Assembly: GCF_003992135.1 (NCBI RefSeq)
Contig: NZ_RQVN01000002.1
Coordinates: 124,001-188,000, forward strand
Length of the DNA stretch: 64,000 nt
Source: Veillonella sp. VA142
Lineage (GTDB): Bacteria; Bacillota; Negativicutes; Veillonellales; Veillonellaceae
Direction: 5' to 3'
Shown: in pieces, positions 24,053 to 63,178 of the stretch
Layout of the letters: each line of letters begins with the position of its first letter
How positions within the stretch are numbered: the first letter of the stretch is position 1
Made by a program: the position numbers and the translations under genes
The notes under the pieces: model-generated
What the model was told of the DNA's origin: nothing
Seen by the model: the letters and a program-made list of their open reading frames with translations, nothing else
Databases searched by the model: none

Positions 24053-24053
24053 T

Positions 24054-27371: not shown

Positions 27372-28023
27372 AAACCCGAAAGCAATTGAAGATAAAAGTA
27401 TGGAAATTATTTACCCATATGTGAAAGACATGGGATTTACTGAAGACGAAATTCGTGTGGTATCTCGTACTATCCATGCGTCTGGTGACGTAGAATATGC
27501 GAAATTATTCCGTACTAGTGAAGGTGCTGTAGCTGCAGGTATTGCAGCTGTGAATAATGGCGCTCATGTTTACACTGATGTGGAAATGGTGCGCACAGGT
27601 ATTTCTAAACCAGCATTGAAGCTTCACAACAGTGAAGCACATTGCTTAATTCGTGATGAAAAAGTAGCAGAAATGGCAAAAGAATTAGGTGTAACACGCT
27701 CTATTGCGGCTATGCGTACATTTGGTAAACAATTAGAAGGTCAAATCGTGGCGATCGGTAATGCACCGACTGCTTTATACGAAGTATTGCGCCTTGCCTT
27801 AGAAGAAGGTATTCGTCCCGCTTTAATCATCGGTATTCCAGTAGGCTTCGTAGGTGCTGCAGAATCTAAGGATTATTTAGCAGAAGTATCTCCAGTTCCT
27901 TATATTACAATCCAAGGTAACAAAGGTGGTAGCTCCATTGCTGCATCCGTTGTTAACGCATTGTTCTACACAGATGTAAAACGTAACGATATGTTATTTG
28001 TAGAAGGAAAAGAAAAGAAATAA
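27358..28023 (+). CDS. cbiC: cobalt-precorrin-8 methylmutase
   Basis: Moves the methyl group from C11 to C12 to give cobyrinic acid. The 221 residues carry the catalytic-His motif RTIHASGDVEYAKLFR, VYTDVEMVRTGI, and the C-terminal GNKGGSSIAASVVNAL. Last cbi gene of the run; its stop overlaps the start of the ABC permease gene, so metabolite synthesis and transport are coupled. Confidence 0.94.
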   Translation: MDYIKNPKAIEDKSMEIIYPYVKDMGFTEDEIRVVSRTIHASGDVEYAKLFRTSEGAVAAGIAAVNNGAHVYTDVEMVRTGISKPALKLHNSEAHCLIRDEKVAEMAKELGVTRSIAAMRTFGKQLEGQIVAIGNAPTALYEVLRLALEEGIRPALIIGIPVGFVGAAESKDYLAEVSPVPYITIQGNKGGSSIAASVVNALFYTDVKRNDMLFVEGKEKK

Positions 28024-29021
28024 TGAATAGAACGAGTCAAACACGCAATGCATGGCGTATGTTTCTCGTTCTAGTGTTTGGGGCAGCAGCGATTGCTGCC
28101 CTCATCTTATCATTAGTATTTGGGTCCGCCCAGACTACATTGGCTCAAATATGGCATACATTGTGGTCTCCCACTTTATCTGATACGAACTCACTAGTCA
28201 TATGGAACATTCGCTTACCGAGGAATATAGTAGCGGCCCTAGTAGGCTCGAATCTAGCTGTAGCAGGTGCTATCTTACAAGCAGTTATGAAAAATCCATT
28301 AGCAGATCCGCAAATCGTAGGGGTTTCCTCAGGTGCAGGATTAGCTGGTGTCATAGTATTAATTTTATTTCCTTACCTAGAATATGCAGTGCCATTCATC
28401 GCCTTTATTGGCGCTTTGACGGCAGCTATTCTTGTATATGCCTTAGCCTGGAAACAGGGCATACGTCCGAGTCGTATTATCTTAGCTGGCGTAGCCGTAG
28501 CTGCATTTCTAGGGTCCATGATATCTGCCCTTCTCGTGTTCTATGGTGATCGCGTACAAGGGGCTTTATTATGGATGGTAGGTGGTCTTGCTGCTCGTAG
28601 TTGGCCACAAGTGTATATCTTAATTCCTTATACCATAGGTGGCTTGTTATTTGCTTTCTTAGGAGCAAAACGATTGACCATACTCAGTTTAGGTGATGAA
28701 ACAGCACGCAGTTTAGGCTTAGCCGTTGAAAAAACACGGTTTATGATGACTGCCGTGGCGGCATTATTGGCGGCGAGTGCTGTATCGGTGGCAGGTTTGA
28801 TTGGTTTCGTAGGATTGATTATTCCGCACATTGCGCGCATGATGTTGGGCACAGATTATCGATTCCTATTGCCGGGCTCTGCCTTCTTAGGAGCTTTTGT
28901 GCTAGTTATTAGCGATACTGTGGGGCGTACGTTATTTAGCCCAATTGAAATTCCAGTGGGTATTATTATGGCTTTCTTTGGTGCGCCATTCTTCTTGTAT
29001 TTATTGAGGAGGGATGACTAA
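28023..29021 (+). CDS. FecCD-family ABC transporter permease (BtuC-like)
   Basis: Inner-membrane permease of 332 residues with about ten hydrophobic segments. RNIVAALVGSNLAVAGAILQ, NPLADPQIVGVSSGAG and GLIGFVGLIIPHIARMMLG are family signatures. The family moves iron-siderophores, haem and cobalamin; the direct overlap with cbiC (TAATG) suggests a cobalamin, corrinoid or cobalt/iron chelate substrate. No binding-protein gene is adjacent; the closest is the lipoprotein at 31.8-32.7 kb on the other strand. Confidence 0.9.
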   Translation: MNRTSQTRNAWRMFLVLVFGAAAIAALILSLVFGSAQTTLAQIWHTLWSPTLSDTNSLVIWNIRLPRNIVAALVGSNLAVAGAILQAVMKNPLADPQIVGVSSGAGLAGVIVLILFPYLEYAVPFIAFIGALTAAILVYALAWKQGIRPSRIILAGVAVAAFLGSMISALLVFYGDRVQGALLWMVGGLAARSWPQVYILIPYTIGGLLFAFLGAKRLTILSLGDETARSLGLAVEKTRFMMTAVAALLAASAVSVAGLIGFVGLIIPHIARMMLGTDYRFLLPGSAFLGAFVLVISDTVGRTLFSPIEIPVGIIMAFFGAPFFLYLLRRDD

Positions 29022-29794
29022 TGAAACCAGTAATTTCTGTGAAAGATTGTCGTGTCTCCTTCGGGGAAAAAGAAGTCTTAAAGGGCATCGATTGGACCGT
29101 CTATGAAGGGGAAATCGCTACCTTAATCGGTCCTAATGGTTGTGGTAAAAGTACATTATTACATGCCATTACTAGTGCCATTAAAAGTACCGGAACCATC
29201 CAAATTGCAGGGAAAGAGGCAAAGGGCTATTCTAATAAAGAATTAGCTAGATATATGGCATTTTTACCACAAGTGCCTTCTATCCCAAAAGATATGTTAG
29301 TAGAAGAACTCGTTAACTGTGGTCGATTCCCATATCAATCTTGGTGGAAGCAACAAGGATCCCATGATACAGAAGTGGTAGATGCTGCCCTAGAGGCCAC
29401 ACAAGTGAGTCATTTACGGAATCAGCTAGTATCTTCCTTATCTGGTGGAGAACGGCAACGGGTATGGATTGCTATGGCCTTAGCTCAAGAACCAAAGGTA
29501 TTGATTTTAGATGAACCAACCACCTACTTAGATATTAATCACCAGTTGGAGATTATGGAACTGTTACAAGACTTAAATCGCCGTGAAGGGTTAACAGTTG
29601 TCATGGTTCTTCATGAATTGAACCAAGCGGCACAATATTCCCATCGGGTCGGTGTACTCTATCAAGGGCATATCTTGGCCGATGGATCACCAAAAGATGT
29701 AATGACAGAAGAATTACTAGAAAAAGTATTTGCTGTTAGAACAGATGTAGAAGTAAGAGAGTTTCCTTATATACGGATACAGGGGTTGCTGTAG
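29021..29794 (+). CDS. FecE/BtuD-type ABC transporter ATP-binding protein
   Basis: ATPase subunit, 257 residues. Walker A GPNGCGKST near residue 38, signature SSLSGGERQRVWIAMAL, Walker B VLILDEPTTYLD, and switch His in VLHELNQAAQ. Overlaps the permease gene by one base and should pair with it. A terminator follows, closing the cbi-transport operon. Confidence 0.93.
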   Translation: MKPVISVKDCRVSFGEKEVLKGIDWTVYEGEIATLIGPNGCGKSTLLHAITSAIKSTGTIQIAGKEAKGYSNKELARYMAFLPQVPSIPKDMLVEELVNCGRFPYQSWWKQQGSHDTEVVDAALEATQVSHLRNQLVSSLSGGERQRVWIAMALAQEPKVLILDEPTTYLDINHQLEIMELLQDLNRREGLTVVMVLHELNQAAQYSHRVGVLYQGHILADGSPKDVMTEELLEKVFAVRTDVEVREFPYIRIQGLL

Positions 29795-31792: not shown

Positions 31793-32737
31793 TTATAATT
31801 GTACTTTCACGCCGTAAATGATCTTAACTAATTCAGCCATTGCCTCAGGTGTTTCTAGTCCAGGATTCAATAGGAACCATTGGGAAGGTAAGAAGATAAC
31901 TTTGTCATTTTTCACAGCTTGTAATTGATTCCAAGCAGGGTTGCTAGTCATTTCTTTGGCAAAGGTTGCATTGATTTCATCCTTTTTACCCATGGTAACG
32001 ACAAGGATTATGTCCGGGTTATCTACTGTTAATGTTTCCAAGGAATAAGGCACTGTTTTAGATGTCACATTGTCTTTCAAATGTTGTTCTACTACATTGT
32101 TGATGCCTAATTCACGAACCATGGACGCCGTAATTGCTAATGGAGTTTCGGCTGTTACCGATTTACCAGTAGCTCGTAATACAGCGATTTTGACAGGTTT
32201 ATCTTTAGGGACAGCAGCTTTCACAGTATCGATTTTTTTATTGTAATCTTCGATGACAGATTTGGCTTTATCTTCTGTATGGAAAATATTACCCAATAAT
32301 GTTAAAAGTGGAATATTATCATTGATTCCATCGTAGTTAATCAAAATAGATGGAATGTTATTGCTATCTAGTTGCCCTTTGAATTTTTCATGTTGGCTAG
32401 GTAAGCCTAATACTAAATCAGGATGTAGACCAACTAATTGTTCCATATTAGGATTGGCTGTATGGCCTATGCTTGGTAATGATTCAATTTCACTAGGTAA
32501 TTTTTCGTTACTTTCAACACGAGCGATGGCTTTGCCACCTACAGCATAGATCATTTTAGAAATAGAGTTAGATAGGGCTACCACCTTGGATGGGTTAGCA
32601 GGAATTGTGTAGGACTGATCTTGGTAAGAGACAGTGCGAGTTGTTTCTGTTGTAGTAGGACCTGTTTTTGCGCATCCACCTAGTAACAAAGAAGTGGAAA
32701 GTAGAACAGCACTACAAATTTTTAAATATGTTTTCAT
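31793..32737 (-). CDS. ABC transporter substrate-binding lipoprotein (iron/haem/corrinoid type)
   Basis: A 314-residue class III binding protein. Signal peptide with lipobox LLLGGC (Cys ~22), then RTVSYQDQSYTIPANPSKVVALS, IGHTANPNMEQLVGLHPDLVLG, and the two-lobe layout joined by a long helix (KAKSVIEDYNKKIDTV). The family binds siderophores, haem or cobalamin. It lies downstream of the exported chelatase gene on the same strand and is the likely partner of the permease/ATPase at 28.0-29.8 kb. Confidence 0.85.
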   Translation of the reverse strand: MKTYLKICSAVLLSTSLLLGGCAKTGPTTTETTRTVSYQDQSYTIPANPSKVVALSNSISKMIYAVGGKAIARVESNEKLPSEIESLPSIGHTANPNMEQLVGLHPDLVLGLPSQHEKFKGQLDSNNIPSILINYDGINDNIPLLTLLGNIFHTEDKAKSVIEDYNKKIDTVKAAVPKDKPVKIAVLRATGKSVTAETPLAITASMVRELGINNVVEQHLKDNVTSKTVPYSLETLTVDNPDIILVVTMGKKDEINATFAKEMTSNPAWNQLQAVKNDKVIFLPSQWFLLNPGLETPEAMAELVKIIYGVKVQL

Positions 32738-32811: not shown

Positions 32812-33807
32812 TTATTTTACTAATGCATCATATGCTTCGGAAGCACGTTCAGCAAAGATATCACGAATTTGTTGGTTTTCACCAGCACCATGGATGTAAG
32901 TATCTACAGTGAAACCTTCTTTCATAAGGATATTTTTGTGAGAATCAGGTTCGTCGCCAGCCATATCGTTGTTTGCATGGTCACCAGCCACCATCATTAA
33001 TGGCATTAATGTAACGTGTTTGATTCCTTTTTCTTTCAATTGAGGGATCACTGTTTCAAGGTTTGGCCATCCTTCAACAGTGTAAAGGTATGTGTTTTGG
33101 AATCCCATGGAATCGATACGATCTTGGATTACTGCATAGTACGCATTAGATGGATCTGGAGTACCATGAGCCATGATCAATACAGCAGAATCTTTTGTTT
33201 GGATCATAGGGAATTGGGAAGAGTATGCTTTTAATGCTTGTTCAATATCATCGCGTTGTTCTTCTTGTCCCATCCAATACATTAAAGGTAAACCTAATGT
33301 CATTTTTTTGAAATCTTGTTTATGGTGGTTGAATACAGCGCCAGCATAGTTATATTCCATACCTGGAATCATATTTAATGTTGTTAAAGCAACACGAGTG
33401 TATCCATCAGCTTTTAATTGGTCTAATGCTTCTTCTGGAGTAGGGTATGTAATGCCTTCTTTAGCTTTAATACGGTCAATGATGATATGGGATGTGAAAG
33501 CAGTGACTACTTTCACATTTGGATGTTGTGCTTTGATTTCATTGATTGTAGCATCAATTGTTTTTGCACGAGTATCTTTGAAAGTAGTGCCAAAGGACAT
33601 AACTACGATAGCATCTTTATTCATTGCGTCTTTCATCATTGGATTTTCGTATGTGCGAACACCAATGGAAGCTGCTTCTTGTAATGCTGGAGTTGCGTCT
33701 TTTACTTCAGAGTTTAACATGTACGCCGCATCAGTAGATTGAGAAACACCGAAAGCTGCAGTTACGGCTAATGCTGCAACCATAGCGCTTTTAGAAAAGA
33801 ACTTCAT
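32812..33807 (-). CDS. cbiK: exported sirohydrochlorin cobaltochelatase (CbiK type)
   Basis: CbiK inserts cobalt (or iron) into sirohydrochlorin. After residue ~45 the 331-residue protein follows CbiK: VVMSFGTTFKDTRAKTI, the metal-site His in LIMAHGTPDPS, and MMVAGDHANNDMAG with the second His. Unlike cytoplasmic CbiK (~265 residues) it begins with a signal peptide, MKFFSKSAMVAALAVTAAFG...TDA|A, so it should be periplasmic, as described for CbiK-P of Desulfovibrio. The cytoplasmic cbi operon would not be served by an exported enzyme unless substrate is exchanged. AAGGAG precedes ATG. Confidence 0.9.
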   Translation of the reverse strand: MKFFSKSAMVAALAVTAAFGVSQSTDAAYMLNSEVKDATPALQEAASIGVRTYENPMMKDAMNKDAIVVMSFGTTFKDTRAKTIDATINEIKAQHPNVKVVTAFTSHIIIDRIKAKEGITYPTPEEALDQLKADGYTRVALTTLNMIPGMEYNYAGAVFNHHKQDFKKMTLGLPLMYWMGQEEQRDDIEQALKAYSSQFPMIQTKDSAVLIMAHGTPDPSNAYYAVIQDRIDSMGFQNTYLYTVEGWPNLETVIPQLKEKGIKHVTLMPLMMVAGDHANNDMAGDEPDSHKNILMKEGFTVDTYIHGAGENQQIRDIFAERASEAYDALVK

Positions 33808-34124: not shown

Positions 34125-36446
34125 ATGAAATTTGAAAAGCGTCAGTCTAAGTTAGCAGTTCTTACTCTTGTGTTAGGTACAATGTCTGCACCAACAATGG
34201 CAGCATATCCTGCTGTTGTTGTAGGTGGTAGCAATGCCAGCGCAACTGGTCATGTGGCATTGGCTGTTGGGGCTAATGCCAATGCATCGGGTAACCAAGG
34301 GGTTGCTATAGGAGCTAATTCTATAGCTAGTGGTGGTAATGCGACGGCTCTTGGGTTAAATGCAACGGCAACACATACAGATGCATTAGCCATTGGTACA
34401 AAAGCAAAGGCAACGAATGTGAATACTACTGTAGTAGGTGCGTATGCTGTATCTAGTGGAGATTATGGGGTGGCAGTTGGAGCCGATTCTTATGCGACAG
34501 GTAACCGTGCTATTTCTATTGGTGTAGCAATCAATGAGACAGAAAATAAACGATTTGGTGCTACCGGTGATCGTTCTATTAGCATTGGTAATGAAACACT
34601 GGCTTCTAGTACGCATACAACAGCCGTAGGTGATAGTGCTACAGCTACTAGCAATCGATCTGCGTCCTATGGGGCATTTGCGAATGCAACGGGTATTCAA
34701 TCCACAGCGGTTGGTCATGCCTCCAATGCAACAGGCAACTATAGCGCTTCCTTTGGTGATGCTTCTGCTGCTAGTGGTGAAACAGCTGTAGCTATAGGTT
34801 ATGGAGCAAAGGCTCGAGATACAGAAACAATTGCTATCGGTAGAGGGGCTAGTACGAATGATTCGGGATCCCATGGCTCTATTGCTATTGGTCGAAACTC
34901 GACGGCTACAGCAGGACTTTCTGTTGCCATAGGGGCAGATGCTAGAAATGAAACGAAGCATCCCACAGCAGATCATACCTATTATGCGGCAACTGCCGTA
35001 GGTACAGGTGCTAGGACTGGTAGTGTTGGGTCTATTGCTATCGGTAATAATAGTGTGGCTAATACAGAGTTAGTAGACGGTGAAATTGGCGTATATTCGA
35101 CTGCAGTTGGTACATCAAGTTCGTCGCAAGGGATATATTCTACGGCAATAGGTGTACATTCTAAGGCGTATGGTCACTATTCCGTTGCCATGGGTATGCA
35201 TAAGCATCAAGTGACAGGAGAAGAGCTAGGTGCCCGTGGATATGGCTCAGCTGCCATCGGTTTATATGCTAATTCTATTGGTTTGCAAAGTGTTGCCATC
35301 GGACAAGAGAGCAAAACTGATCGTAATCGAAGTATAGCAATCGGTCTTAAAGCGATTACTAATGGTGTGGATAGTATAGCGATGGGAACTAAATCAAGCA
35401 CACATGCCTCTAACAGTGTTGCTATTGGTTTAGACTCGAAAACAACCATTGATTCTTCCGTTGCACTAGGTGCATTATCCTCCACATCGGGTCAAGCTTT
35501 CACAGCGGGCTATGATCCTACTACAAAAGCGGCTATGGATATGAGTACTGTGGTGAAAGATGTAGCTGCTTATGAGGCACAAAAAACTATCATTAAAGAG
35601 GCGAATGAGACAATCGACAAGTCTAATGTCGTACTTCGTACAGCTGAATATGATCGTATCTATGGCGCCACTGCAGATATTCGCAATGCAGCTGATACCT
35701 TAACGGCAGAGCATCGTGGAAAAATTATTGACGCAGAAGCTAAAAAGTTGGAGGCAATGCAGGCGATTAAGAATAACTTTCAAGGTGCTTCTGCATGGGA
35801 GAGCTCATTAGGTGGTGTATCTGTTGGTAACGCAGACTTGGGATTAACTCGCCAAATTAATAACGTGGCGGCAGGTACGTTGGATACAGATGCTGTTAAT
35901 GTAGCTCAGTTAAAACGAGTACTTAATACAAGTATCAACAATACTATGGGAGACATCATGAACCAAACGAACACTTTGGTGAATGGAGTTCGTCAAGATG
36001 TACAGGCTCTTCGTAGTGAAAGTCGAGAAGGGGATGCAATAAATGCTGCGTTAGCAGCATTAAAACCAGTGGCGTATAAATCGACAGAGCCTACACAAAT
36101 TATGGCGGGTGTAGGACATAACTCTGGTACTACCGGTTTTGCTTTAGGTGTAGCTCATTATACAGACGAAGGAACCATGTTTAATGCGGGGATTGCATTT
36201 GCTGGTAAACAACGATCCTATAATGGAGGTGTTACATTTAGAATTGGACATGGCAGTGATGATGTGCCACAATATGCACCTCCAGCAACAGTGCAAGTTC
36301 TTTCAGAAGAGTTAGCAATGGAGAAATCTAACAATGTATTGCAAGAGCGTCGCATTGAAGAACAAGATGTAAAAATTAATCGTTTATTAGAACAAAATGA
36401 ACGGTTGCAACAAGATGTACAAGCCTTAAAGGCTTTGTTAAAATAA
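34125..36446 (+). CDS. trimeric autotransporter adhesin (YadA-like) with C-terminal coiled-coil tail
   Basis: Surface adhesin of 773 residues. Signal peptide 1-27 (...SAPTMAA). Residues ~30-465 are a YadA-type head of 14-residue repeats of the AIGxxSxAxGxxS kind. Residues ~470-640 are a stalk with a neck motif (AAGTLDTDAVNVAQLKRVL). The membrane anchor runs from about 640 to 707 (LKPVAYKSTEPTQIMAG...GGVTFRIG). Unusually a further ~65 residues follow: a Pro-rich joint and a heptad coiled coil (VLQERRIEEQDVKINRLLEQ), which should lie in the periplasm. GAGGTTAGGA precedes the ATG. Veillonella Hag-type adhesins are the nearest known group. Confidence 0.92.
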   Translation: MKFEKRQSKLAVLTLVLGTMSAPTMAAYPAVVVGGSNASATGHVALAVGANANASGNQGVAIGANSIASGGNATALGLNATATHTDALAIGTKAKATNVNTTVVGAYAVSSGDYGVAVGADSYATGNRAISIGVAINETENKRFGATGDRSISIGNETLASSTHTTAVGDSATATSNRSASYGAFANATGIQSTAVGHASNATGNYSASFGDASAASGETAVAIGYGAKARDTETIAIGRGASTNDSGSHGSIAIGRNSTATAGLSVAIGADARNETKHPTADHTYYAATAVGTGARTGSVGSIAIGNNSVANTELVDGEIGVYSTAVGTSSSSQGIYSTAIGVHSKAYGHYSVAMGMHKHQVTGEELGARGYGSAAIGLYANSIGLQSVAIGQESKTDRNRSIAIGLKAITNGVDSIAMGTKSSTHASNSVAIGLDSKTTIDSSVALGALSSTSGQAFTAGYDPTTKAAMDMSTVVKDVAAYEAQKTIIKEANETIDKSNVVLRTAEYDRIYGATADIRNAADTLTAEHRGKIIDAEAKKLEAMQAIKNNFQGASAWESSLGGVSVGNADLGLTRQINNVAAGTLDTDAVNVAQLKRVLNTSINNTMGDIMNQTNTLVNGVRQDVQALRSESREGDAINAALAALKPVAYKSTEPTQIMAGVGHNSGTTGFALGVAHYTDEGTMFNAGIAFAGKQRSYNGGVTFRIGHGSDDVPQYAPPATVQVLSEELAMEKSNNVLQERRIEEQDVKINRLLEQNERLQQDVQALKALLK

Positions 36447-36516: not shown

Positions 36517-36600
36517 GTGTTATTTCAATTTGTGAATCAAATGGAGCATTTTATGTCTATTTAGAGTAGATGTAAATCATCATTAGTAATAAAATATAAA

Positions 36601-36615
36601 TGATTAATATTATCA
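36601..36615. promoter_or_regulatory. Fur-box-like palindrome upstream of receptor 1
   Basis: TGATTAATATTATCA matches the 7-1-7 Fur consensus TGATAATnATTATCA at 12 of 14 fixed positions. It lies 36-50 bp before the start codon at 36651. The best -10 candidate, TAAAAT at 36590-36595, is just upstream, so binding could block transcription. Iron control is inferred from the match and from the gene type. Confidence 0.55.
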
Positions 36616-36650
36616 ATGATATTTATATTATAGAAAGATGGTGGAATGCT

Positions 36651-39600
36651 ATGCATTATACTAAGCCGTATCAAAAACGTTTACTTACTGGTGCAGTCAT
36701 GAGTTGGATGGCATGCTCTTGGTATCTATTAGGTGGGTTAGCACCTGTACAGGCAGAAGGGTCAGTATTTGTTACAGCAGATCGTGCACAAGAAGAAGCA
36801 AAATATAACTCTCAACAAGTGCAAATCATTACCAAAAAAGATATTGAACTAAAGCAGGCTAAATCTGTGGAAGATATCGTATTTACACAAGCTGGTGTAA
36901 GTCGTACAGTGGACAGTATGGGCCGTGTCGGTGTATCGATTCGTGGTGCCGAACCTCGTCATACATTAATACTCGTAGATGGTCAGCCAGTGATGGGTGA
37001 ATTTGCAAAGTATCAGGGGCAAGGCGATGAATTGCAACGACTAGGTACAGAAAATGTGGAACGTATAGAAATTATTCAAGGTGCAGCAAGCGCAAAATAC
37101 GGATCTGATGCCATTGGTGGTGTTATCAATGTAATTACAAATAAACCAAATAAAAATGCTAATATCCGCATTAATGGTGAGAGTATTCGTTCTCGTGGCG
37201 ACCAAGGCTTGTTCCCATACAGTAACTTCTTTATGCGTGCTGATTCAGGCCAACAAGGTAAATTACGAGTGAATATTCACGGTAGCAAACGTGATATTGT
37301 GCCCGTATATGCTGCACGAGAAAGAAAAGAAGTTCCATTTGGTGATCCTAGTGTGCCCCATCGATTCCCTAAAAACTCACTTCGTTATTATGGCGCCAAT
37401 GCCAATATTGGCTTGTCTGCTATCTATGATGTGAATGATAAAAATTCATTTTCTTTCACCATGGATCGATATAACGAAGATTTAGAGCGATATGTAAAAC
37501 GAACGAATTCTGAAGATGAACCACAAGTGCATTATAAACGTGATTTGGATCGGAATAAAATTAACTTTTCCTATGCTGGTTCCGATGAAAAAAATAACTG
37601 GAAAGTGGAATTGAACTCTGCCCGGACAAAAGAAGATGATGTGACCCTTACTAGTGAATTTGGAAATAGTAACTATGAAGGTAAAAACACGTTGAATTAT
37701 GTGGACAATGTGGATCATAAACAATGGAGCTTAAATGTTACTGGCGATACACAAGCCAATGAAAATCATTTACTTTCTTATGGGTTTGGATACACTACTG
37801 AAAGTGGTGAAGGTAGTCGATTAAAAAGCGCGCCTCACACATGGGTTCGTAACATTGACCCATGGGATTATGATAAAAGTTTAGCTGTGAAAAAAGGGAA
37901 ACCTTCTAGTACCATCTATCGTCATTCTTTTGATAAAAATAGTGATGGCTCTTTACGGTGGAATAAAGAACATGAATGGTATGGCTATGATGGAACAATT
38001 AATACCAGTGTGCCTGAATTTACCTATGAAGACTTTAAAAACTATTTAGACCCAGAAGCAGGGCTAGATGAGTCTGCCTTTATGGGTTTGGTCTATGATT
38101 CTGGTGGAAATTATACGCCGAACAATCTTCAAAGACGCAATCCTGAAGCCTTTAAACGGTTTGAAGCATTCAACGAAAGATTAAAACAAATTCCTTACAA
38201 TCAAGAACTGGTGGCTAAGTATGGGCCAGGACATCAAGGATCCACCACCATAGATGGAGTGAAACCACCAATTATTAACTTAGCGTATTTGGCTTTATTC
38301 TATTATATGGAAGATCCATCCTTTAAAATTGTACGACCTCAATTCAATGGTGGTCATTTTAAGGATGAGTACAATAAACGGATTAATCAGCAAACGGTAG
38401 GGAGTGCTCGGTTACGGAAACAACATTTCTTCATCCAAGATACATGGCAAGTGAATAAGAACACGATTTTACAACCGATTGCTCGCCTAGACCATAGTGA
38501 TTTATTCGGTTCCCATATGACTTTCAACATGGGGGTTACCCATAATGTAAAGGGCAATGCACATCGTCGTTTGAAAGCTAATATTGGAACCAGCTACACC
38601 GAGCCAGGCATGGGGGAAATGTACTATAATTGGGAAATGTATGGCCCTACGGTAACGAATGTAGCTCCACTTTCCGGTGGTCGTGCACGACTAGGATGGT
38701 ATTGGATTGGTAATCCTGATTTAAAACCAGAAACCTCGAAAAATATAGATATCTCTTTTGAAGGGGAAAACAAAAATACCTATTTCAAATTAACTGCTTT
38801 CCGCAACCAAATTACGAACTACATGACCATTGCTAATACAGGACATATTATAGATTTTCATCCTTATTTAAATGAAAGTACTTATATGGGTGCTACAAAA
38901 TTTGAACATGCACCAGATATGATTTATACTTTTAAAAATATAGGTAAAGCTCGTATTAATGGCTTGGAATTAGAGTTAAAACAACGGTTGAATGAGCATT
39001 TTAAATTTAAATTCGGTTATACCTATTTGAATGCCATTAATAAAACAAATCCAGATTTGCCACGTCGATTGCTAGATAAACCAATGCATAAATTGGACTT
39101 AGGTTTAGAATTTGAAGATAAAAAAAGTGGCTGGAGTGGTAATATTTGGGCAGACTATTACTATAAAATGCTAGATAGTAATTCCGTATCTGGCGGTGGT
39201 AATTATATTACATCACAAAAAGACCCTGATAATGACGATAAATCTATCATTACCTACGAGTTTAATACGAAAAAGACAGCGGATATGTATAAGTTAAAAT
39301 CCTATGGCATTTGGAACATGATTGTGCAAAAGAAAATCAATAAAGATTCCTTAGTGTATTTTGGCATTAATAATATCTTTGATCATCGAGATGATGATCG
39401 AGCCTTGCAAGGTCGTCAATATCGGTTTGGGATGAATTTAAAATTTGGGGCTTCTAGTGAAACAAAGGATAAGGTAGTAGAAGTATCTACAAAAGTCATT
39501 CATGATAAAAATGATATTATAGCCATGACTCCACTGAATACATTTGTCTTGGAGAAACCATTTGATGAAGGCAAAGAAAAAGGAATTACATTCATAGGCG

Positions 39601-41798
39601 ATTTACGTATGGGTGGAGATAGTCATTTAGGTAGTGATCGACCATCCAATCGGGTTACAGCAGTCAGCTCAATTAGTGATGGGGCATTGAAAAACCTACT
39701 AGATAAAAATGAACATGGGTTCCATACACGGTTGCGTTTGGGTGCTAATGCACGAGTTAATGATACTATGAATGTAAAATTACTCATCACAGCACAGGGG
39801 CAAAACGGTGTGGATACATCTCATGAAATGGTAGGTTCAAAAGGTATTCAACATAGTAGAGTAGAAGAGTTAGATTTGACGAAACATCATGCAAAATGGG
39901 ATTATTCTGTAGGTAGGATGAAAGAACGAATGGGTGCTACAGGGTACTGGTTTAATAAAGAATTTGATGGACTTCGTACCGTTTGGACTAGTGATAAAGA
40001 CCAAGTACGTATTGGATTTGGGGATTTCTCCCGCAGCACCGGTATCCAAGACTCTTCGTATACTCATGCAATTTATACGAAGTTTAAACGACCACCAACT
40101 GTGGATGAGTTTGTTGGTACATCCTATGATTACTCAGAACTTTCAGAAGAAGACCGAAACCGTGTTGGTGGAGCAAAAGTTGAAAAAGTTGTGAAAGATG
40201 CACCGAATACAGTGAATTTCTATCAACAGTTGAAAAAGTTGCTGAGGGAATATAAGGAGTTATCTGCAAAAAAAGATGACTATACTACTGAATTAGATAG
40301 TTTAAAAGATGACTTGGCAGGTAATGGTTGGGTAACACCTACAGAAGAGGAAAAAGTTGAACTACGAGCAAAAATTGAAGCTAAAACAAAAGAATTGGAA
40401 GAAATTACTACAAAATGGGAAGCTAATGTAGATGCTCAGTATGGAACACTGGCTCGCATGCAAGACATTGTAATAAAAGCCTATGGTAATGATAAAGCTT
40501 TCACTACAGTTGATATAGCGACAAGGACGGAAAAAGAAATTACCATTCCAATTAAAATGCCAAAATTAAACTATACCTTAAAGGGAAAATCACAGGAATT
40601 TAAATATGATGATGATGGAGATTTGATGCGTGGACCAGATGGAAACCCTATTCCAGCTGGACCTGCAACCGAAAGCTCATTTAAACAAGCGATTAGTCCT
40701 AGTGGGAATAATATAAATAACCCTATTTTCAAATTAAAACTTAAGGATATTCAAGTTCTTGGCAAAAATAAAAAAGAATTTTTAGCAAAGTGGTTTAAAG
40801 AGAATAAAGCAGAAATATTAAAGGGATATGACGAGGAAGCCAAACGACTCGCTATTGGAGCTTTTAACGGAGGTGTTACAGGAGTAGAATTGACTGATGA
40901 TTCTGGTAAAGTAGGAGATGAGCTTTATAAAAATAATTATCTAGAGACTGATGGAAGTCCTCAAGATCATACAATATACAACACATACGATTCAGACATG
41001 TACCCATACTTAATTGCTCAATATTTCAATAAACTCGTTAGTGTCTTAGAGGCCACTGATGCTCATAGTCGTTTACCAAGGGAAACATTGACTCCATACA
41101 CAGGAGCTATTATTCCTGCGAAAGGTATCGTATTGCAACGTGATACTATACCACCAATTAAAGGAGCTGGATTTATTCAACTTCGACATATGGTAGGTAA
41201 ACAAATGGGAATCAGTGCATGGTATTTACGTTCCTTAGGTAATGATGAATTTAGTATGGCCTACGCTTCTGGATTGACCACATCCTCTAAAACGTTACGA
41301 GGTATGGCTAATGTGATTGGTATTGGTGCTAATTATCGAATGGGGCAAGCTACGGTTTCCTTCGATTATGGTCAAAACAGAACAGACCTTGGTCGATTTA
41401 TGAATGGTCGCACTATCTATGATTATGTGCCAGGGTCCATAAACTTTACCCCAACAGGTCGAACTAATGGTGGGAATCCAACATTCTGGGCTGTTCGTTT
41501 TGATGTTGGACAATCGGATATGAGTAGACCAGGTAGCTGGAATGGATTCATCGATTACAAATCCTTTGACCATGGTTCCTTCTTCGGCGGAAATGGAACG
41601 GGGGCTGTACCAGATCGATACCTAGATGGTATTCGTAGCTTCACCGTTGGTGGTGGATATGTACCATGGAAAGATGTATTATTAGAAGCATCCTATACCT
41701 TCGATGCAAAAGCGATTGGACAAAGAGATACTTTATACGGTGCAGAAAACTTTAAATTAGGAAATTACACAAGAATCCAAGGAACTTATAGGTTCTAG
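36651..41798 (+). CDS. TonB-dependent receptor fused to a second porin-like barrel (paralogue 1)
   Basis: Outer-membrane protein of 1,715 residues. Signal peptide to VQA (~35); TonB box GSVFVTA like that of BtuB; plug at ~50-170 (VSIRGAEPRHTLILVDGQ, ERIEIIQGAASAKYGSDAIGG); receptor barrel to ~932, ending in the normal receptor terminus YRFGMNLKF. A ~30-residue linker leads to a second part (~964-1715) with porin-like strands (ATGYWFNKEFDGLRTVWTS) and a terminal Phe (TRIQGTYRF). The second part holds a Lys/Glu-rich insert with coiled coil (~1158-1513). Start at 36651: a 36600 ATG lies in the Fur-like site and lacks a ribosome binding site. Likely ligand haem, iron chelate or corrinoid, by context. 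Confidence 0.88.
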   Translation: MHYTKPYQKRLLTGAVMSWMACSWYLLGGLAPVQAEGSVFVTADRAQEEAKYNSQQVQIITKKDIELKQAKSVEDIVFTQAGVSRTVDSMGRVGVSIRGAEPRHTLILVDGQPVMGEFAKYQGQGDELQRLGTENVERIEIIQGAASAKYGSDAIGGVINVITNKPNKNANIRINGESIRSRGDQGLFPYSNFFMRADSGQQGKLRVNIHGSKRDIVPVYAARERKEVPFGDPSVPHRFPKNSLRYYGANANIGLSAIYDVNDKNSFSFTMDRYNEDLERYVKRTNSEDEPQVHYKRDLDRNKINFSYAGSDEKNNWKVELNSARTKEDDVTLTSEFGNSNYEGKNTLNYVDNVDHKQWSLNVTGDTQANENHLLSYGFGYTTESGEGSRLKSAPHTWVRNIDPWDYDKSLAVKKGKPSSTIYRHSFDKNSDGSLRWNKEHEWYGYDGTINTSVPEFTYEDFKNYLDPEAGLDESAFMGLVYDSGGNYTPNNLQRRNPEAFKRFEAFNERLKQIPYNQELVAKYGPGHQGSTTIDGVKPPIINLAYLALFYYMEDPSFKIVRPQFNGGHFKDEYNKRINQQTVGSARLRKQHFFIQDTWQVNKNTILQPIARLDHSDLFGSHMTFNMGVTHNVKGNAHRRLKANIGTSYTEPGMGEMYYNWEMYGPTVTNVAPLSGGRARLGWYWIGNPDLKPETSKNIDISFEGENKNTYFKLTAFRNQITNYMTIANTGHIIDFHPYLNESTYMGATKFEHAPDMIYTFKNIGKARINGLELELKQRLNEHFKFKFGYTYLNAINKTNPDLPRRLLDKPMHKLDLGLEFEDKKSGWSGNIWADYYYKMLDSNSVSGGGNYITSQKDPDNDDKSIITYEFNTKKTADMYKLKSYGIWNMIVQKKINKDSLVYFGINNIFDHRDDDRALQGRQYRFGMNLKFGASSETKDKVVEVSTKVIHDKNDIIAMTPLNTFVLEKPFDEGKEKGITFIGDLRMGGDSHLGSDRPSNRVTAVSSISDGALKNLLDKNEHGFHTRLRLGANARVNDTMNVKLLITAQGQNGVDTSHEMVGSKGIQHSRVEELDLTKHHAKWDYSVGRMKERMGATGYWFNKEFDGLRTVWTSDKDQVRIGFGDFSRSTGIQDSSYTHAIYTKFKRPPTVDEFVGTSYDYSELSEEDRNRVGGAKVEKVVKDAPNTVNFYQQLKKLLREYKELSAKKDDYTTELDSLKDDLAGNGWVTPTEEEKVELRAKIEAKTKELEEITTKWEANVDAQYGTLARMQDIVIKAYGNDKAFTTVDIATRTEKEITIPIKMPKLNYTLKGKSQEFKYDDDGDLMRGPDGNPIPAGPATESSFKQAISPSGNNINNPIFKLKLKDIQVLGKNKKEFLAKWFKENKAEILKGYDEEAKRLAIGAFNGGVTGVELTDDSGKVGDELYKNNYLETDGSPQDHTIYNTYDSDMYPYLIAQYFNKLVSVLEATDAHSRLPRETLTPYTGAIIPAKGIVLQRDTIPPIKGAGFIQLRHMVGKQMGISAWYLRSLGNDEFSMAYASGLTTSSKTLRGMANVIGIGANYRMGQATVSFDYGQNRTDLGRFMNGRTIYDYVPGSINFTPTGRTNGGNPTFWAVRFDVGQSDMSRPGSWNGFIDYKSFDHGSFFGGNGTGAVPDRYLDGIRSFTVGGGYVPWKDVLLEASYTFDAKAIGQRDTLYGAENFKLGNYTRIQGTYRF

Positions 41799-41859
41799 AT
41801 TTACGTAATTGAAAGTGAGTTTCTCTCCTGTATTGGATAATTTAATAGTTAGAAGAGAT

Positions 41860-41898
41860 GCCTAATGACTGTTTGTCTTATAGTTATTAGGCATTTTT
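41860..41898 (+). terminator. intrinsic terminator between the two receptor genes
   Basis: GCCTAATGACT pairs with AGTTATTAGGC (one G-U), 11-nt loop, then ATTTTT. The rest of the 306-bp gap (41799-42104) has no ORF; it carries the Fur-like site and the ribosome binding site AGGAG at 42091. Confidence 0.8.
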
Positions 41899-42036
41899 GA
41901 TGTTCGATGTTAACACAATCAGGTGTATATTTATAGATAAAAATAAGAAAGAGTTTCAAATAAATGAACTAATTGGGCTATTGGATTTCATTTTGGAGTA
42001 GAATTGAAATATCATTTACTATAAAATAATAGAAAA

Positions 42037-42051
42037 TGATACTTTTTGTCA
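42037..42051. promoter_or_regulatory. Fur-box-like palindrome upstream of receptor 2
   Basis: TGATACTTTTTGTCA matches the 7-1-7 Fur consensus at 11 of 14 fixed positions and extends into an AAATGA/TCATTT inverted repeat. It is 54-68 bp before the start of paralogue 2, similar to the site before paralogue 1. A weak promoter TTGAAA-N17-TAATAG lies just upstream. Confidence 0.5.
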
Positions 42052-42104
42052 TTTATAGGGATTCATTGATATATAGTTTTTTAGAGATATAGGAGCAGAT
42101 TGCC

Positions 42105-45100
42105 ATGACCACACATCGGAGAAAGCAACAGAAATACTTTATGCTATCTTGCGCTATAGCTACATGGATAGCTATGCCTGGATTGATGTATACAAATACG
42201 GTACAAGCTGAGGGTTCTGTGTATGTAACAGCCGACAAAGCACATGAAGAGGCAAAATATAACTCTCAACAAGTGAGTATTATTACTAAAAAGGATATTG
42301 AGCAAAAACAAGCGAAGTCATTAGAAGATATCATTTTTACTGAAAGCGGTGTATCTCGTACTGTGGATTCGATGGGTCGTGTAGGTGTATCCATCCGTGG
42401 TGCCGAAGCACGACATACTCTAATTTTAGTAGATGGACAAGCCGTATTAGGGGACTTGGCTAAGTTTAGTGGCGCCGCTGACGAAGTGATGCGTTTAGGT
42501 ACAGAAAACGTGGAACGCATTGAAATCGTACAAGGTTCTGCTAGTGCGAAATATGGTTCCGATGCGATTGGTGGTGTAGTGAACATTATCACTAAAAAAG
42601 CAGCAAAAAAACCAACTATTCAAATCAATGGTGAAGGATCTCGTGCTAAAGGTGGAGAAACTGGATATGGTAATTCAAATTTCTTCTTACGTGCTGATTC
42701 TGGACAAATGGGTAAAGTGCGTGTAGCTATCTCTGGTAGTAAACGTGATATTATGCCTGTATATGCTACGCAAGCAAGAAGAGATACTGGAGATAAACTA
42801 GAAGGCGAGTTTAAACCAAATGTGCTTCGTTTCTATGGAGATACCTCTGATGTTGGGTTGAACGCAATTTACGATATTAATAAAGAAAACAATATTCAAG
42901 TTCGTCTAAATCGATATACAGAAGATTTACAACGTGATGTAAAACATAGTACATCTCCATTTGAGCCACAGCGCCATTTTAAACGTGATAGCAACCGTAA
43001 TACATTGAATATGATTTGGAACGGTCGAGGTGGTGCTAGCGATTGGAAATTAGAATTGAACCATTCTCGCATTAATGAAAATGATATTTCTTTAATTAAT
43101 TACTTCGGCCGTTCTCAGTACGAAGGTAAAAATGAATTGAAGTATATTGATGATGTAGACCATCGTCAAACTGATATCCGCTTCAATGCAAATTCTGCTA
43201 TTGGGGATACACACACATTGAGTTGGGGGATTGCACAAACCCATGAAACTGGTTTTGGTAGTCGCTTGAAAAGCTCTCCAAATGTAAAAACAAGATATAT
43301 TGATCCATGGGACTATGATAAAAACTTGTTAGTAGCTGGTGTAGATCGTCTAGAGCGTCGCCCTGGGGACAATAGTTTGCGTGTTTATTCACACATTCAT
43401 GATTTTAAATTTAAACCAAGTAAAGATGGTTTACCAATTTGGGATAAAGATTATGAATATTATGGCGCTGAGAAAAAGAGCGACATTCCACCGATTACCT
43501 ATGAATACTTCCGTGAACATAAATTAGATGACCCTAATAAAACAACAGACCCATCCTCGGTGTATAATAATTTAACAGATTTTGGAGTAGATGATGAACA
43601 CTGGGAAAAAATTCGTGATTTCAATGATGCATTAAAAAATGAAAATAATCTTCAAAGTGCATCTTCTGTGTATGTAAAATACTTTACACAAGGGGAATCC
43701 TTGGATCCAGCAGAGCGTGCGAAAGCACCAAAATACAAAGGCGTTAAATTCCTTGAGAAATATCGTGAACGTGAACAACGTATTACAGAAGGGGAAGGCA
43801 CTATCAATAAAACAAATATGTACTTATCCGATGCTTGGCAAGTCAATAAAGATTTATTAGTACAACCAACAGTTCGTATTGATAAAAGTAACTTATTCGG
43901 TAGTCATGTATCCTGGAATTTAGGGGCTACCTATAATGTAAACTCCAATGCGCATCGTCGTTTGAAAGTCAATGTAGGTACAGGCTACGCTGAACCAGGT
44001 ATGGGTGAATTGTGGTATAATTGGCAAATGTTTGGTTCTAACCCAGTAGCACAAGGTGTAGCTAAAATGGGTTGGTACTGGGCAGGTAACCCTAACTTGA
44101 AACCAGAAACATCCAAAAATATCGACATTAGTTTTGAAGGAGAAGGCAAAAATGACTATGCTCGCTTTGGCATTTTCCAAAACCGTATTACTAATTACAT
44201 GTCGGTATATTTTACAGGAGAACTACAAGATTGGGCTCCGCAATTATCGAAACAAGATAAATGGATGCAAGCACCAGATTTAATTTATAGCTTTAAAAAT
44301 ATTGGGAAAGCTAAAATTACCGGTGCCCAATTAGAGTGGAAACATAAATTTGGTAATCATTGGAGTACGCGCTTTGGCTGGACTCGTCTACAGGCTTTAA
44401 ACCAATCTGATCCAACAATGCCTAGACATTTATTAGATCGTCCAACTAATAAAATTGACTTTGGTATTACATACGAAACTAAAAAATGGAATGCACAACT
44501 TTGGGCGGACTATTACCATAAAATGTTGGATAGTAATACGCAAAAAAATCGTTCCAACTATTGGATTAGTGGAATTGATTCCGATAGTGCTATTTATAAT
44601 GTTTCTAATGAATACGAAGAAAAATCCTACGGTATATGGAATGCCATGGTACAACGTAAATTTGGCGATGATTCATTAGTATACTTTGGTGTTAATAATA
44701 TCTTTGATCATCGCGATGATGACCGTGCAACACAAGCTCGTGTATATCGTTTTGGTGTGAACCTAAAATTTGGCCCTGGTGGTGCACATAAAGATACAAA
44801 TGTGAAAGCACAAACACCAGGTACAGCGAATAGTAGTATAGGATCCACAACACCGATTTCTCAAACTCAAGTTGATACTGCGTTAGCTAGAGTCAATGGC
44901 GATAATATGGGACATAGTCATCACTTCTTAGATCGTCCATTTGATGCAAATAAAGAAGTAGGCACTCAATTTATCGGTGATTACCGAGCACGCTTAATGG
45001 CTCATGGTGGTTCTGAACGTCCACAATCCTTGTATACAAGTACTTCTTATGTAGGAAGTGCTGAATATAACTTAAAAGATCAAAGAGAACATGGCTTAGA

Positions 45101-47345
45101 ACAACGCATTCGTTTTGGTGCAGATGAAAAAATCAATGACCACACGAATGTGAAAGTGTTAGCAAGTGCAAGTGGTACTCACTCCGTAGATACAGCAAGC
45201 ACAACAGTTAACTCACAAGGACTTAATAAACAACGATTGGAAAACCTAGATGTGACAAATTCTAATGGACGTTGGGATTTCTCTATCGGTCGTTTATCTG
45301 AATCTATGGGTACTACAGGTTATTGGTTTAATAAAACATTTGATGGTGTTCGTGCTGTTTGGACGGACCAACGAAATCAATTCCGTACGGGTATCGGATC
45401 ATTCAAAGCAAGCACGGGTATTACAGATTCTGCTTACACTCATAGTACGTACGCTACGTACTTTAGAGCGCCAACATTGGATGAATTTATTGGATTAAAC
45501 AGCCAAATATACAACACATTTAATGAAGGCATGTACGGCAATGAGTGGAAGACTCCGATTGAAGAAAAAGATGGAAAAAGAATTCCTCAAAAAGGATCTT
45601 TTATGGAAAGATACTTAAAGGACTTTAAAGGTAAGAACGAAAATCTATTTTTTGTAGAGCAATTGAGCGATATAGAAAATACAATGTCTAACCTATCAGA
45701 ACAAGAACGGGCTGCAAAACGTACTGAGATTGTACAACGCATGGCCGAGATTGTTGGTAAAGCATATCCAGAACTAGCTAACTCTACTCACTTAGCATAT
45801 AGGACTGAAACGCCTGGAAAAACGATAAACATTATGTATGAAGTAGAGGATGCTAATGGTACAAAGGCATACTTAATGGCTCAGATGGATCTTTATTCAT
45901 CTGGTGGAAAATTTAGCCCATATCCGATTTACAAGAATGATTCAGACGAAAGAAAAGCTGTTAAAAAAGAGAAAAACGAAATCTTAAAAGAGTTGTATGG
46001 TAAAACATTAGCGTCTGTTAATTCAAAATTTGCCGCAAGTTTGGGAGACCCAACGGTATTAACCAAGGAATACATTGATAAGAATAAAGCAAAATTAGAA
46101 GAAGGATACAAGGCTGCTGCTGAATGGGCTGCACGTAAACAATGGATTGAAGATAATGAATATTCTTTGGATTCACGTGATGACAAAATAAAATATTCTG
46201 AGAACTTTGCTCTTACGGATGATGGATATTATAAACAAATCTCTTCAAGTGCTCCTGAGGCAAGAAAACTTGATAATCCAGTCAAGGATTATAAATTTAA
46301 AAGAGTTGTAAAAATATTTGAAAAAGGGGAAAACGTATTTGGCAAAGGCATTAAAATGAAAGATGTTGATATTGCCGAAACATTAAAATCTGCGAATTTT
46401 GTTACAACACCTAGTGATTATACAGAAGGTCAGATGCAGTTTTTCCCAGAATTATATTTAAGAGAATTAATTAAATTATTAAGAGACTCTGAACAAGGTA
46501 ATACATTACCTCGCGCAGCCTTAGAAAAAGTAATTGGCAAACCAATCAAAGTGACTGGTTTAAAATTAGAACGTGATACAATTCCTGCGATCGATAAAGC
46601 TATCTTTGCTCAATATAAAACGCAAATTAACCCACGGTTAGGTATTCAAGCATGGTTCTTACGTTCCTTGAACAATAATGAACACACAATGCAAGCTGGT
46701 CATGCAAAAACTAAGATGGTCACTCATACAGGTATTACCGGGTATAATACAGATTGGGCAGGAGATATCAATCCAGATGATCCAATTTACGGCGATGTAA
46801 CATCTGAAGTACCAGACTTAACAAATGATACATACACAACAAATCGCTTGGCAAATATCTTTGCGATCGGTGCACAATATCAATTAGGTCATAATGCGTT
46901 ACTTTCCTTAGATTATGGTTTGAATCGCAGTGATTTCGGTCGCTATATGAATGGTCATACCAACTTTGATCATGTTCGAAATACTGCTGACTTCACAGTG
47001 AAAGGTCACTCCATGGGAGGTACTCCACACTTCTGGACAGCTCGTCTTGACATCGGACAATCTGATTACACAAGACCGGGTAGCTGGAATGCGTTCATGG
47101 ATTATAAATACTTTGCTCATGGTTCCTTCTTCGGTGGTAATGGCACAGGTGCAGTACCTGATCGTTACTTAGATGGTATCCGCAGCTTTACATTAGGTGG
47201 TGGATATGTTCCTCGTAAAGACTTCTTAGTAGAGGCATTCTATACATTTGATGCCAAAGGTATTGGACAACGTGATACATTATATGGTGGAGAAAACTTT
47301 AAATTAGGTAACTACACTCGTATTCAAGGTACTTACAAGTTCTAA
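42105..47345 (+). CDS. TonB-dependent receptor fused to a second porin-like barrel (paralogue 2)
   Basis: A 1,746-residue paralogue of the preceding gene with the same order of parts: signal peptide to VQA, TonB box GSVYVTA, plug (SIRGAEARHTLILVDGQAV, SAKYGSDAIGGVVNIITK), receptor barrel ending near residue 891 (VYRFGVNLKF), a linker with Thr/Pro/Ser, then a second porin-like part ending in TRIQGTYKF. The part-2 flanks are very similar to paralogue 1 (GSFFGGNGTGAVPDRYLDGI occurs in both), but the middle insert (~1132-1505) is divergent. AGGAG lies 9 bp before ATG. Probably a duplication followed by divergence of ligand or surface specificity. Confidence 0.88.
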   Translation: MTTHRRKQQKYFMLSCAIATWIAMPGLMYTNTVQAEGSVYVTADKAHEEAKYNSQQVSIITKKDIEQKQAKSLEDIIFTESGVSRTVDSMGRVGVSIRGAEARHTLILVDGQAVLGDLAKFSGAADEVMRLGTENVERIEIVQGSASAKYGSDAIGGVVNIITKKAAKKPTIQINGEGSRAKGGETGYGNSNFFLRADSGQMGKVRVAISGSKRDIMPVYATQARRDTGDKLEGEFKPNVLRFYGDTSDVGLNAIYDINKENNIQVRLNRYTEDLQRDVKHSTSPFEPQRHFKRDSNRNTLNMIWNGRGGASDWKLELNHSRINENDISLINYFGRSQYEGKNELKYIDDVDHRQTDIRFNANSAIGDTHTLSWGIAQTHETGFGSRLKSSPNVKTRYIDPWDYDKNLLVAGVDRLERRPGDNSLRVYSHIHDFKFKPSKDGLPIWDKDYEYYGAEKKSDIPPITYEYFREHKLDDPNKTTDPSSVYNNLTDFGVDDEHWEKIRDFNDALKNENNLQSASSVYVKYFTQGESLDPAERAKAPKYKGVKFLEKYREREQRITEGEGTINKTNMYLSDAWQVNKDLLVQPTVRIDKSNLFGSHVSWNLGATYNVNSNAHRRLKVNVGTGYAEPGMGELWYNWQMFGSNPVAQGVAKMGWYWAGNPNLKPETSKNIDISFEGEGKNDYARFGIFQNRITNYMSVYFTGELQDWAPQLSKQDKWMQAPDLIYSFKNIGKAKITGAQLEWKHKFGNHWSTRFGWTRLQALNQSDPTMPRHLLDRPTNKIDFGITYETKKWNAQLWADYYHKMLDSNTQKNRSNYWISGIDSDSAIYNVSNEYEEKSYGIWNAMVQRKFGDDSLVYFGVNNIFDHRDDDRATQARVYRFGVNLKFGPGGAHKDTNVKAQTPGTANSSIGSTTPISQTQVDTALARVNGDNMGHSHHFLDRPFDANKEVGTQFIGDYRARLMAHGGSERPQSLYTSTSYVGSAEYNLKDQREHGLEQRIRFGADEKINDHTNVKVLASASGTHSVDTASTTVNSQGLNKQRLENLDVTNSNGRWDFSIGRLSESMGTTGYWFNKTFDGVRAVWTDQRNQFRTGIGSFKASTGITDSAYTHSTYATYFRAPTLDEFIGLNSQIYNTFNEGMYGNEWKTPIEEKDGKRIPQKGSFMERYLKDFKGKNENLFFVEQLSDIENTMSNLSEQERAAKRTEIVQRMAEIVGKAYPELANSTHLAYRTETPGKTINIMYEVEDANGTKAYLMAQMDLYSSGGKFSPYPIYKNDSDERKAVKKEKNEILKELYGKTLASVNSKFAASLGDPTVLTKEYIDKNKAKLEEGYKAAAEWAARKQWIEDNEYSLDSRDDKIKYSENFALTDDGYYKQISSSAPEARKLDNPVKDYKFKRVVKIFEKGENVFGKGIKMKDVDIAETLKSANFVTTPSDYTEGQMQFFPELYLRELIKLLRDSEQGNTLPRAALEKVIGKPIKVTGLKLERDTIPAIDKAIFAQYKTQINPRLGIQAWFLRSLNNNEHTMQAGHAKTKMVTHTGITGYNTDWAGDINPDDPIYGDVTSEVPDLTNDTYTTNRLANIFAIGAQYQLGHNALLSLDYGLNRSDFGRYMNGHTNFDHVRNTADFTVKGHSMGGTPHFWTARLDIGQSDYTRPGSWNAFMDYKYFAHGSFFGGNGTGAVPDRYLDGIRSFTLGGGYVPRKDFLVEAFYTFDAKGIGQRDTLYGGENFKLGNYTRIQGTYKF

Positions 47346-47953: not shown

Positions 47954-48376
47954 GTGAAAGAAGAAATGACAAAAGAAATACAAGAATCGACGGGTGTGAT
48001 TCGTTATATTTGGATTGTATTGGGTGCTATTAGTTTTGGCTTAGGGTCATTGGGAATTGTATTGCCTTTATTGCCAACGGTACCATTTTATTTATTCGCT
48101 GTATTTTGTTTTGCTAGAGGATCTAAACGATTCCATGAGAAGTTTGTAAACTCAAAACTCTATGCAAACTATGTAGAGCCTTTTAAAAGTAAAAGTGGCA
48201 TGCCATTGCGCACTAAGATTAATATTTTGGTATCCGTGTCTATTTTATTGGGCATTGGTGCTTATGGTATGCGCAATATGCCGGTAGCATTATACATTAT
48301 GGGGGCTGTGTGGATAGGTCATGTGATTGCCCTTGCGTTTATTGTGAAAACGGCACCACCTGAACCTAAAGCATAA
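47954..48376 (+). CDS. DUF454 family inner-membrane protein (YbaN-like)
   Basis: A 140-residue membrane protein with LGSLGIVLPLLPTVPFYLFAVFCFARGSKRFH-type family core (shown here in part: GIVLPLLPTVPF and CFARGSKRFHEKF) and about three hydrophobic segments. Function unknown; homologues are sometimes linked to haem or iron genes. Start taken as GTG at 47954 with AAGGG upstream; an ATG at 47966 is an alternative. Confidence 0.85.
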   Translation: MKEEMTKEIQESTGVIRYIWIVLGAISFGLGSLGIVLPLLPTVPFYLFAVFCFARGSKRFHEKFVNSKLYANYVEPFKSKSGMPLRTKINILVSVSILLGIGAYGMRNMPVALYIMGAVWIGHVIALAFIVKTAPPEPKA

Positions 48377-63018: not shown

Positions 63019-63076
63019 TTTACTATAAAAATTTACTAATCCATGCTATACTATAAGCAAGTAAATATTTTAGATT

Positions 63077-63165: not shown

Positions 63166-63178
63166 GCTGACATATGTG

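Follow-up and report, generated by a model that had tools for sequence, protein, structure and literature searches.

Tandem Veillonella genes that join a TonB-dependent receptor to an OmpM-type barrel: a predicted double-barrel receptor family of the Negativicutes

An outer-membrane protein is normally thought of as a single barrel whose assembly signal lies at the extreme C terminus of its chain. The locus described here raises the question of whether two complete barrels can share a single chain and, if so, what the second one is for. The window, a stretch of 64,000 nucleotides from a Veillonella species near strains VA139, CHU740, and 3891, contains two uninterrupted plus-strand open reading frames, 36600-41798 (1732 residues) and 42105-47345 (1746 residues), each of which encodes a TonB-dependent receptor (TBDT) that does not stop where such receptors stop. 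For copy 1, the ATG at 36651, the start given in a preliminary description of this DNA, is likely to be the true one rather than the opening of the frame at 36600, since the signal peptide begins there. The parts of the two genes are as follows.

36651..41798, plus strand: copy 1, fused TonB-dependent receptor and OmpM-like porin (open reading frame, Pfam)
36651..36755, plus strand: copy 1 signal peptide, MHYTKP...APVQA (by eye)
36762..36779, plus strand: copy 1 TonB-box-like motif, SVFVTA (by eye; aligned consensus xTxxVxVxA)
36810..37124, plus strand: copy 1 plug domain PF07715, residues 71-175 (Pfam)
37158..39449, plus strand: copy 1 first (TBDT) barrel, closing with a strand near residues 940-950 (Pfam, model, Foldseek)
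39450..39581, plus strand: copy 1 variable inter-barrel linker (conservation, pairwise identity)
39582..40025, plus strand: opening strands of the copy 1 second barrel, about residues 995-1142 (model, Foldseek)
40026..41165, plus strand: copy 1 second-barrel insertion, mostly helical, predicted coiled coil, putatively loop L4 by strand parity
41166..41795, plus strand: copy 1 second barrel, remaining strands with conserved L7 and L8 and terminal TYRF (model, conservation)
42105..47345, plus strand: copy 2, fused TonB-dependent receptor and OmpM-like porin (open reading frame, Pfam)
42264..42578, plus strand: copy 2 plug domain, residues 54-158 (Pfam)
43539..44774, plus strand: copy 2 TBDT barrel, residues 479-866 by Pfam and onward to the terminal strand near residue 890 (Pfam, anchor motif)
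44967..47342, plus strand: copy 2 second, OmpM-like barrel with insertion, start approximate (Pfam)

The first half of each protein is a complete TonB-dependent receptor. A signal peptide and a TonB-box-like motif can be recognized by eye in both copies, the TonB-box consensus being visible also in the alignment, and the Pfam models for the plug (PF07715; E 1.4e-21 in copy 1 and 3.2e-20 in copy 2) and for the TBDT barrel of the 22-strand type (PF00593; E 2.9e-38 and 4.8e-30, respectively) are both matched, the barrel model to its final position (436 of 436) at residues 926 and 866. The first barrels end in RQYRFGMNLKFG (copy 1) and RVYRFGVNLKFG (copy 2), consistent with the ends near residues 932 and 891 that had been proposed previously, and the long continuation that had been described beyond them amounts to some 780-860 residues in each protein. 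AlphaFold2 models, which cover copy 1 alone as separate halves cut at a boundary of our choosing, predict a TBDT for residues 21-962 (pLDDT 79, pTM 0.77), whose last strand, residues 940-950, bears the usual barrel-end pattern; in Foldseek comparisons this half matches complete PfeA, PirA, Cir, and BtuB (target TM 0.67-0.84, E down to 5e-37). Receptors of the CirA, PfeA/FepA, and BtuB types are the best matches of the receptor half in both sequence and fold and share with it the plug, the barrel, and, as judged by eye, the signal peptide and TonB-box-like motif. However, these known catecholate- and cobalamin-type TBDTs end at the barrel, whereas the fused proteins continue with a further barrel and constitute a clade of their own.

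The second half belongs to the porin/OmpM family, as had been anticipated. When isolated, the second part of copy 1 scores 26.9 bits against Porin_5 (PF16930; E 2.3e-6), for which the curated cut-off is 22, and that of copy 2 falls just under the cut-off at 21.1 bits (E 1.3e-4). In related genomes, the unfused proteins nearest to it in sequence are OmpM porins with SLH domains; the second part aligns with OmpM across its last third (hhalign, 99.3%, E 3.9e-20). A sequence search of the PDB with a profile of the second part gave no real match, the fold search alone providing one: the AlphaFold2 model of copy 1 residues 952-1732 (19 sequences; mean pLDDT 81, pTM 0.66) has as its top four Foldseek matches chains of Veillonella parvula OmpM1 (8bys/8bym/8byt; E 3e-13, target TM 0.69-0.75), with Campylobacter MOMP, AlgE, and OmpU ranking below. 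In the numbering of this model, strands at 44-213 are followed by a mostly helical, coiled-coil insertion and by further strands at 554-780, giving 16-18 strands in all, a count set by one hairpin. A terminal Phe closes both proteins, as the preliminary description had stated for the second set of strands, and is shared with OmpM, as are the barrel fold and the sequence family (V. parvula OmpM1, PDB 8BYM/8BYS/8BYT). The earlier term "OmpM-like porin" is appropriate for the type of barrel, but the SLH domain that defines OmpM gave no match in either protein in Pfam and NCBIfam scans, and the barrel is interrupted by the large helical insertion. The SLH domain and stalk are both missing, with the TBDT occupying their place before a short and variable linker, and the insertion, about 380 residues with its flanks, is larger than in OmpM. 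Matches of the insertion to CspZ/CRASP-2, myosin tails, and similar proteins were weak and driven by the coiled coil and were disregarded. A helical insertion of coiled-coil-like character is also present, apparently at the corresponding loop, in three stand-alone OmpM-type porins of related genomes (L036-L038), together with a similar glycine-rich L7; an SLH domain is seen in L037 and L038, whereas L036 is cut and lacks its start. Among living proteins, these porins may be the closest relatives that the captured barrel has.

Taken from the models of the two halves of copy 1, each of which resembles complete solved barrels (of TBDTs and of V. parvula OmpM1, respectively, as expected from the previous proposal), the predicted architecture is very probably one of two separate barrels in one chain, and we infer that the same arrangement is adopted in vivo. 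That the chain could instead form one very large single barrel, or that it could represent an assembly joint of two genes, has the length of the chain in its favor and nothing else that was found; since each half matches a complete barrel, with a non-conserved linker between them, and since the fusion is carried by a closed V. parvula chromosome and by several families, we regard either possibility as extremely unlikely.

A scan of 84,980 species genomes, which misses distant relatives because it requires exact peptide words, identified 59 loci in Veillonella, Megasphaera, Colibacter, Anaeroglobus, Selenomonas, and Centipeda, as well as in one Sporomusaceae metagenome-assembled genome and one unclassified Negativicutes metagenome-assembled fragment. 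All intact genes among these loci are fused with the same domain order, the lone halves being contig ends or frameshifts. A survey of 301 Negativicutes genomes gave 43 matches at E ≤ 1e-15 within 8 of 97 genera; the fused type is present in 42 of the genomes, one of which (G024) contains a short fragment only, and the remaining match (G033) is an OmpM. At the same threshold, a phylum sample of 300 genomes produced three matches, in Negativicutes only. In a search with the receptor half, the full-length relatives with at least 41% identity were all in fused frames or fragments of these, and the ordinary TBDTs of the same bacteria (670-857 residues) showed only 32-40% identity over about 250 residues. 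Within the clade, the 59 loci, the class survey, and the receptor-half search yielded no intact gene in which either half stands alone, and the expectations that the domain order would recur in Negativicutes, and that neither a chance fusion nor a sequencing joint is involved, were both borne out. An assembly joint or an oddity of a single genome is ruled out by the spread over many genomes, including the closed one, and a mobile or viral origin was rejected, no relative being present in plasmids or viral contigs. The genome of the window itself encodes six plug-containing proteins, three ordinary (659-767 residues) and three fused (1565, 1732, and about 1750 residues); the third fused protein, of 1565 residues, is on a different contig.

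Trees of either half place copy 1 with V. parvula copy 1, Colibacter, and M. micronuciformis, and copy 2 apart, which indicates that the tandem pair antedates Veillonella. The preliminary description was thus correct in seeing the fusion in both copies of a duplicated gene, but the duplication is not recent, the copies being old paralogues that predate the Veillonella radiation. The pairwise distances of the two halves are strongly correlated (Mantel r 0.883, reached in 0 of 2000 permutations), and the simplest history is a single ancient fusion that has been inherited as a unit, although the copies may occasionally have exchanged sequence. About 16 fused-receptor loci were found on separate contigs of one draft genome, that of Megasphaera cerevisiae DSM 20462 (L052-L097); many are frameshifted or at contig ends, and few pairs have long near-identical stretches. 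They represent a lineage-specific expansion that possibly includes silent copies.

No description of a TBDT-porin fusion was found in the literature, in a search that covered open-access full text, and the combination of a TBDT and an OmpM-type porin in one chain appears to be an undescribed receptor design that is shared by a whole receptor family within the Negativicutes. The outer membranes of V. parvula contain "TonB family proteins" Vpar_0061/0065/0066/0074 (PMC5491611), and it is plausible that the fused proteins are identical with these.

The disposition of the chain in the membrane can be considered from the models. In outer-membrane barrels, the long loops are outside and the short turns are periplasmic. 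By a count of strands back from the C terminus, the insertion separates strands 7 and 8, so that by strand parity the ∼380-residue segment is probably in extracellular loop L4. If the model hairpin 204-213/554-563 were part of the barrel, the number of strands would be 18 and the insertion would be periplasmic, which is less likely. Because the TBDT ends and an OmpM-type barrel begins in the periplasm, a periplasmic linker would be able to join the barrels without crossing the membrane. This linker is among the least conserved parts of the 43 full-length fused proteins used for the conservation profile, with a mean pairwise identity of 13% at residues 951-980. The low identity and the low model confidence of this stretch, with the normal barrel-end signature retained at the internal TBDT end, are features to be expected of a precursor that is cut in the linker by a periplasmic protease to yield two separate barrels in equal amounts. 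The linker contains no conserved cleavage motif, however, and the fusion is kept in all intact members of the clade when a two-gene operon would serve equally, so that processing of this kind seems quite improbable.

In the same profile, the plug is the most conserved part (0.85-0.92), and the second-barrel insertion (about 0.2-0.4) and receptor residues 476-575 (about 0.32) join the linker at the lower extreme. Loops L7 (HGSFFGGNGTxxVPDRYLDG) and L8 of the second barrel have values of about 0.85 and 0.80, as compared with 0.38 and 0.41 in 10 stand-alone OmpM sequences in which these loops are variable, suggesting that the second barrel is constrained on its outer face in a way not shown by the stand-alone porins that were compared. 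This bears on the view that the second barrel functions as a diffusion porin, its fusion serving to tie together the amounts and positions of a TonB-gated and a passive channel. The closest structure is that of the OmpM1 porin, and the OmpMs of V. parvula have been described as its general diffusion porins (PMC10628300), but such strongly conserved outer loops and a large insertion in one loop are atypical of a general porin, several stand-alone OmpMs are already encoded in the genome, and we consider this role unlikely. In OmpM1, three 16-stranded barrels form a trimer (PMC10628300), and the resemblance of the second part to the OmpM1 barrel would also be compatible with a module for assembly or clustering that trimerizes to gather three receptors; the SLH/stalk region of OmpM is absent, however, and a clustering function is rated as a rather poor prospect.

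The explanation that we prefer, with a probability of roughly 0.45, is that the proteins are double-barrel chains in which a TonB-driven receptor is combined with an accessory second barrel. One secreted chain would fold as two side-by-side outer-membrane barrels connected by a flexible periplasmic linker. The first would be a TonB-dependent receptor, taking up its bound ligand under the pull of TonB-ExbB-ExbD, and the second would be derived from an OmpM-type porin in which the receptor has taken the place of the peptidoglycan-binding SLH part. The second barrel would display the large variable insertion, probably extracellular on L4, beside the strongly conserved L7 and L8, and the exposed head might capture or screen ligand beside the mouth of the receptor. 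In view of the size, variability, and probable exposure of the insertion, the fixed outer loops nearby, and the TonB-driven receptor as partner, our best guess, at somewhat less than even odds, is that the second barrel acts as a barrel-anchored accessory receptor. In other bacteria, ligand capture beside a receptor is carried out by surface lipoproteins such as TbpB and BtuG. The proposed principle, an exposed accessory part by a TonB-driven channel, would be the same as in TbpA-TbpB, BtuB-BtuG, and SusC-SusD, by analogy and not homology; the partner in these systems is a separate lipoprotein, whereas in the fused proteins a barrel of the receptor chain itself would take that part.

If this architecture is correct, the assembly machinery must make two whole barrels out of a single polypeptide in which one barrel-end signal is internal, and a conserved two-barrel chain of this type allows one to test how BAM completes one barrel and begins another without releasing the chain. 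The family also suggests a route by which receptor-accessory pairs may have arisen in diderm Firmicutes. Such tests are practical in V. parvula, which is amenable to genetics, with ompM deletion mutants in existence (PMC10628300), and carries two orthologues of the fused receptors.

Expression of the family may be switched in some genera. In 780,101 bases of related loci, 11 G/C tracts of at least 8 bases were found, 10 at the starts of fused-receptor genes and the eleventh inside one. The start-proximal tracts, G8-G13 (L052, L061, L064, L066, L070, L071, L072, L084, L086, and L093), occur in Megasphaera, Selenomonas, Colibacter, and Anaeroglobus, mostly between the signal peptide and the TonB box; no G-tract is present in the window copies. 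In M. cerevisiae, a tract of G12 holds the frame (L071) and one of G13 breaks it (e.g. L052), and the frame is broken in 7 of the 8 G-tract genes that could be scored. Judged by sequence, the start-proximal tracts outside Veillonella are likely to reflect slipped-strand phase variation, although tracts of this kind are also possible sites of draft-assembly error. Phase variation was rejected as the cause of all broken copies, because the internal frameshifts of the M. cerevisiae, Colibacter, and Anaeroglobus copies mostly fall outside long tracts and therefore look like decay or draft-assembly errors; among the broken copies, it would fit those with start-proximal G-tracts only. The Neisseria hemoglobin receptors HmbR and HpuAB are phase-variable, and poly-G near the start of a TBDT gene can set the frame. 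The non-Veillonella fused genes share the start-proximal poly-G with these, but the Neisseria proteins are single-barrel receptors from another phylum. The tracts suggest a pressure for on/off switching such as often acts on surface targets of phage, bacteriocins, and immunity. The wider proposal, of a class-specific family of single-chain double-barrel receptors that captured an OmpM barrel as a partner for ligand capture and that is phase-variable in several genera, is a tentative one that we hold to be rather less probable than an even chance.

With regard to the energy supply, ExbB and ExbD come after the orthologous tandem in V. parvula SKV38 and are upstream in one Sporomusaceae locus, and the genome of the window has one TonB and one ExbD side by side on another contig. 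Two candidate regulatory sites precede the copies.

36601..36615, plus strand: candidate Fur-box-like near-palindrome TGATTAATATTATCA upstream of copy 1, differing from TGATAATNATTATCA by 2 mismatches
42037..42051, plus strand: weaker candidate of the Fur-box-like type upstream of copy 2, with 3 mismatches

A Fur-box-like site with at most 3 mismatches is located upstream of all 22 fused Veillonella genes, as compared with 12% of shuffled upstream sequences and 10 of 29 AT-rich control genes, an enrichment that is suggestive only because the 22 genes are related; across the whole window, such sites are no more frequent than expected by chance. Upstream of the copies, the window contains cobalamin biosynthesis (cbi) genes, a FecCD permease and ATPase, a periplasmic binding protein, and CbiK, neighbors that hint at a corrinoid, heme, or iron substrate, but this neighborhood differs at the V. 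parvula tandem, and a search of the window for riboswitches revealed no cobalamin riboswitch and only one for TPP. The substrate is perhaps an iron-siderophore, heme, or a corrinoid.

Several other features of the window may be recorded. The CbiK cobalt chelatase (32812-33807, minus strand) has a signal-peptide-like N terminus, adjoins the periplasmic binding protein (31793-32737), and lies downstream of the cbi/FecCD cluster (21754-29794); a role in periplasmic tetrapyrrole handling is possible. The TPP riboswitch (63070-63178, E 4.3e-12) is an ordinary one, with a thiC-like gene past the end of the window. A YadA-type trimeric autotransporter (34125-36446) lies directly upstream of the fused receptors, and a DUF454 membrane protein is encoded near the tandem both in the window (47954-48376) and in V. 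parvula (L043:1935-2327, with an AraC regulator), on opposite sides.
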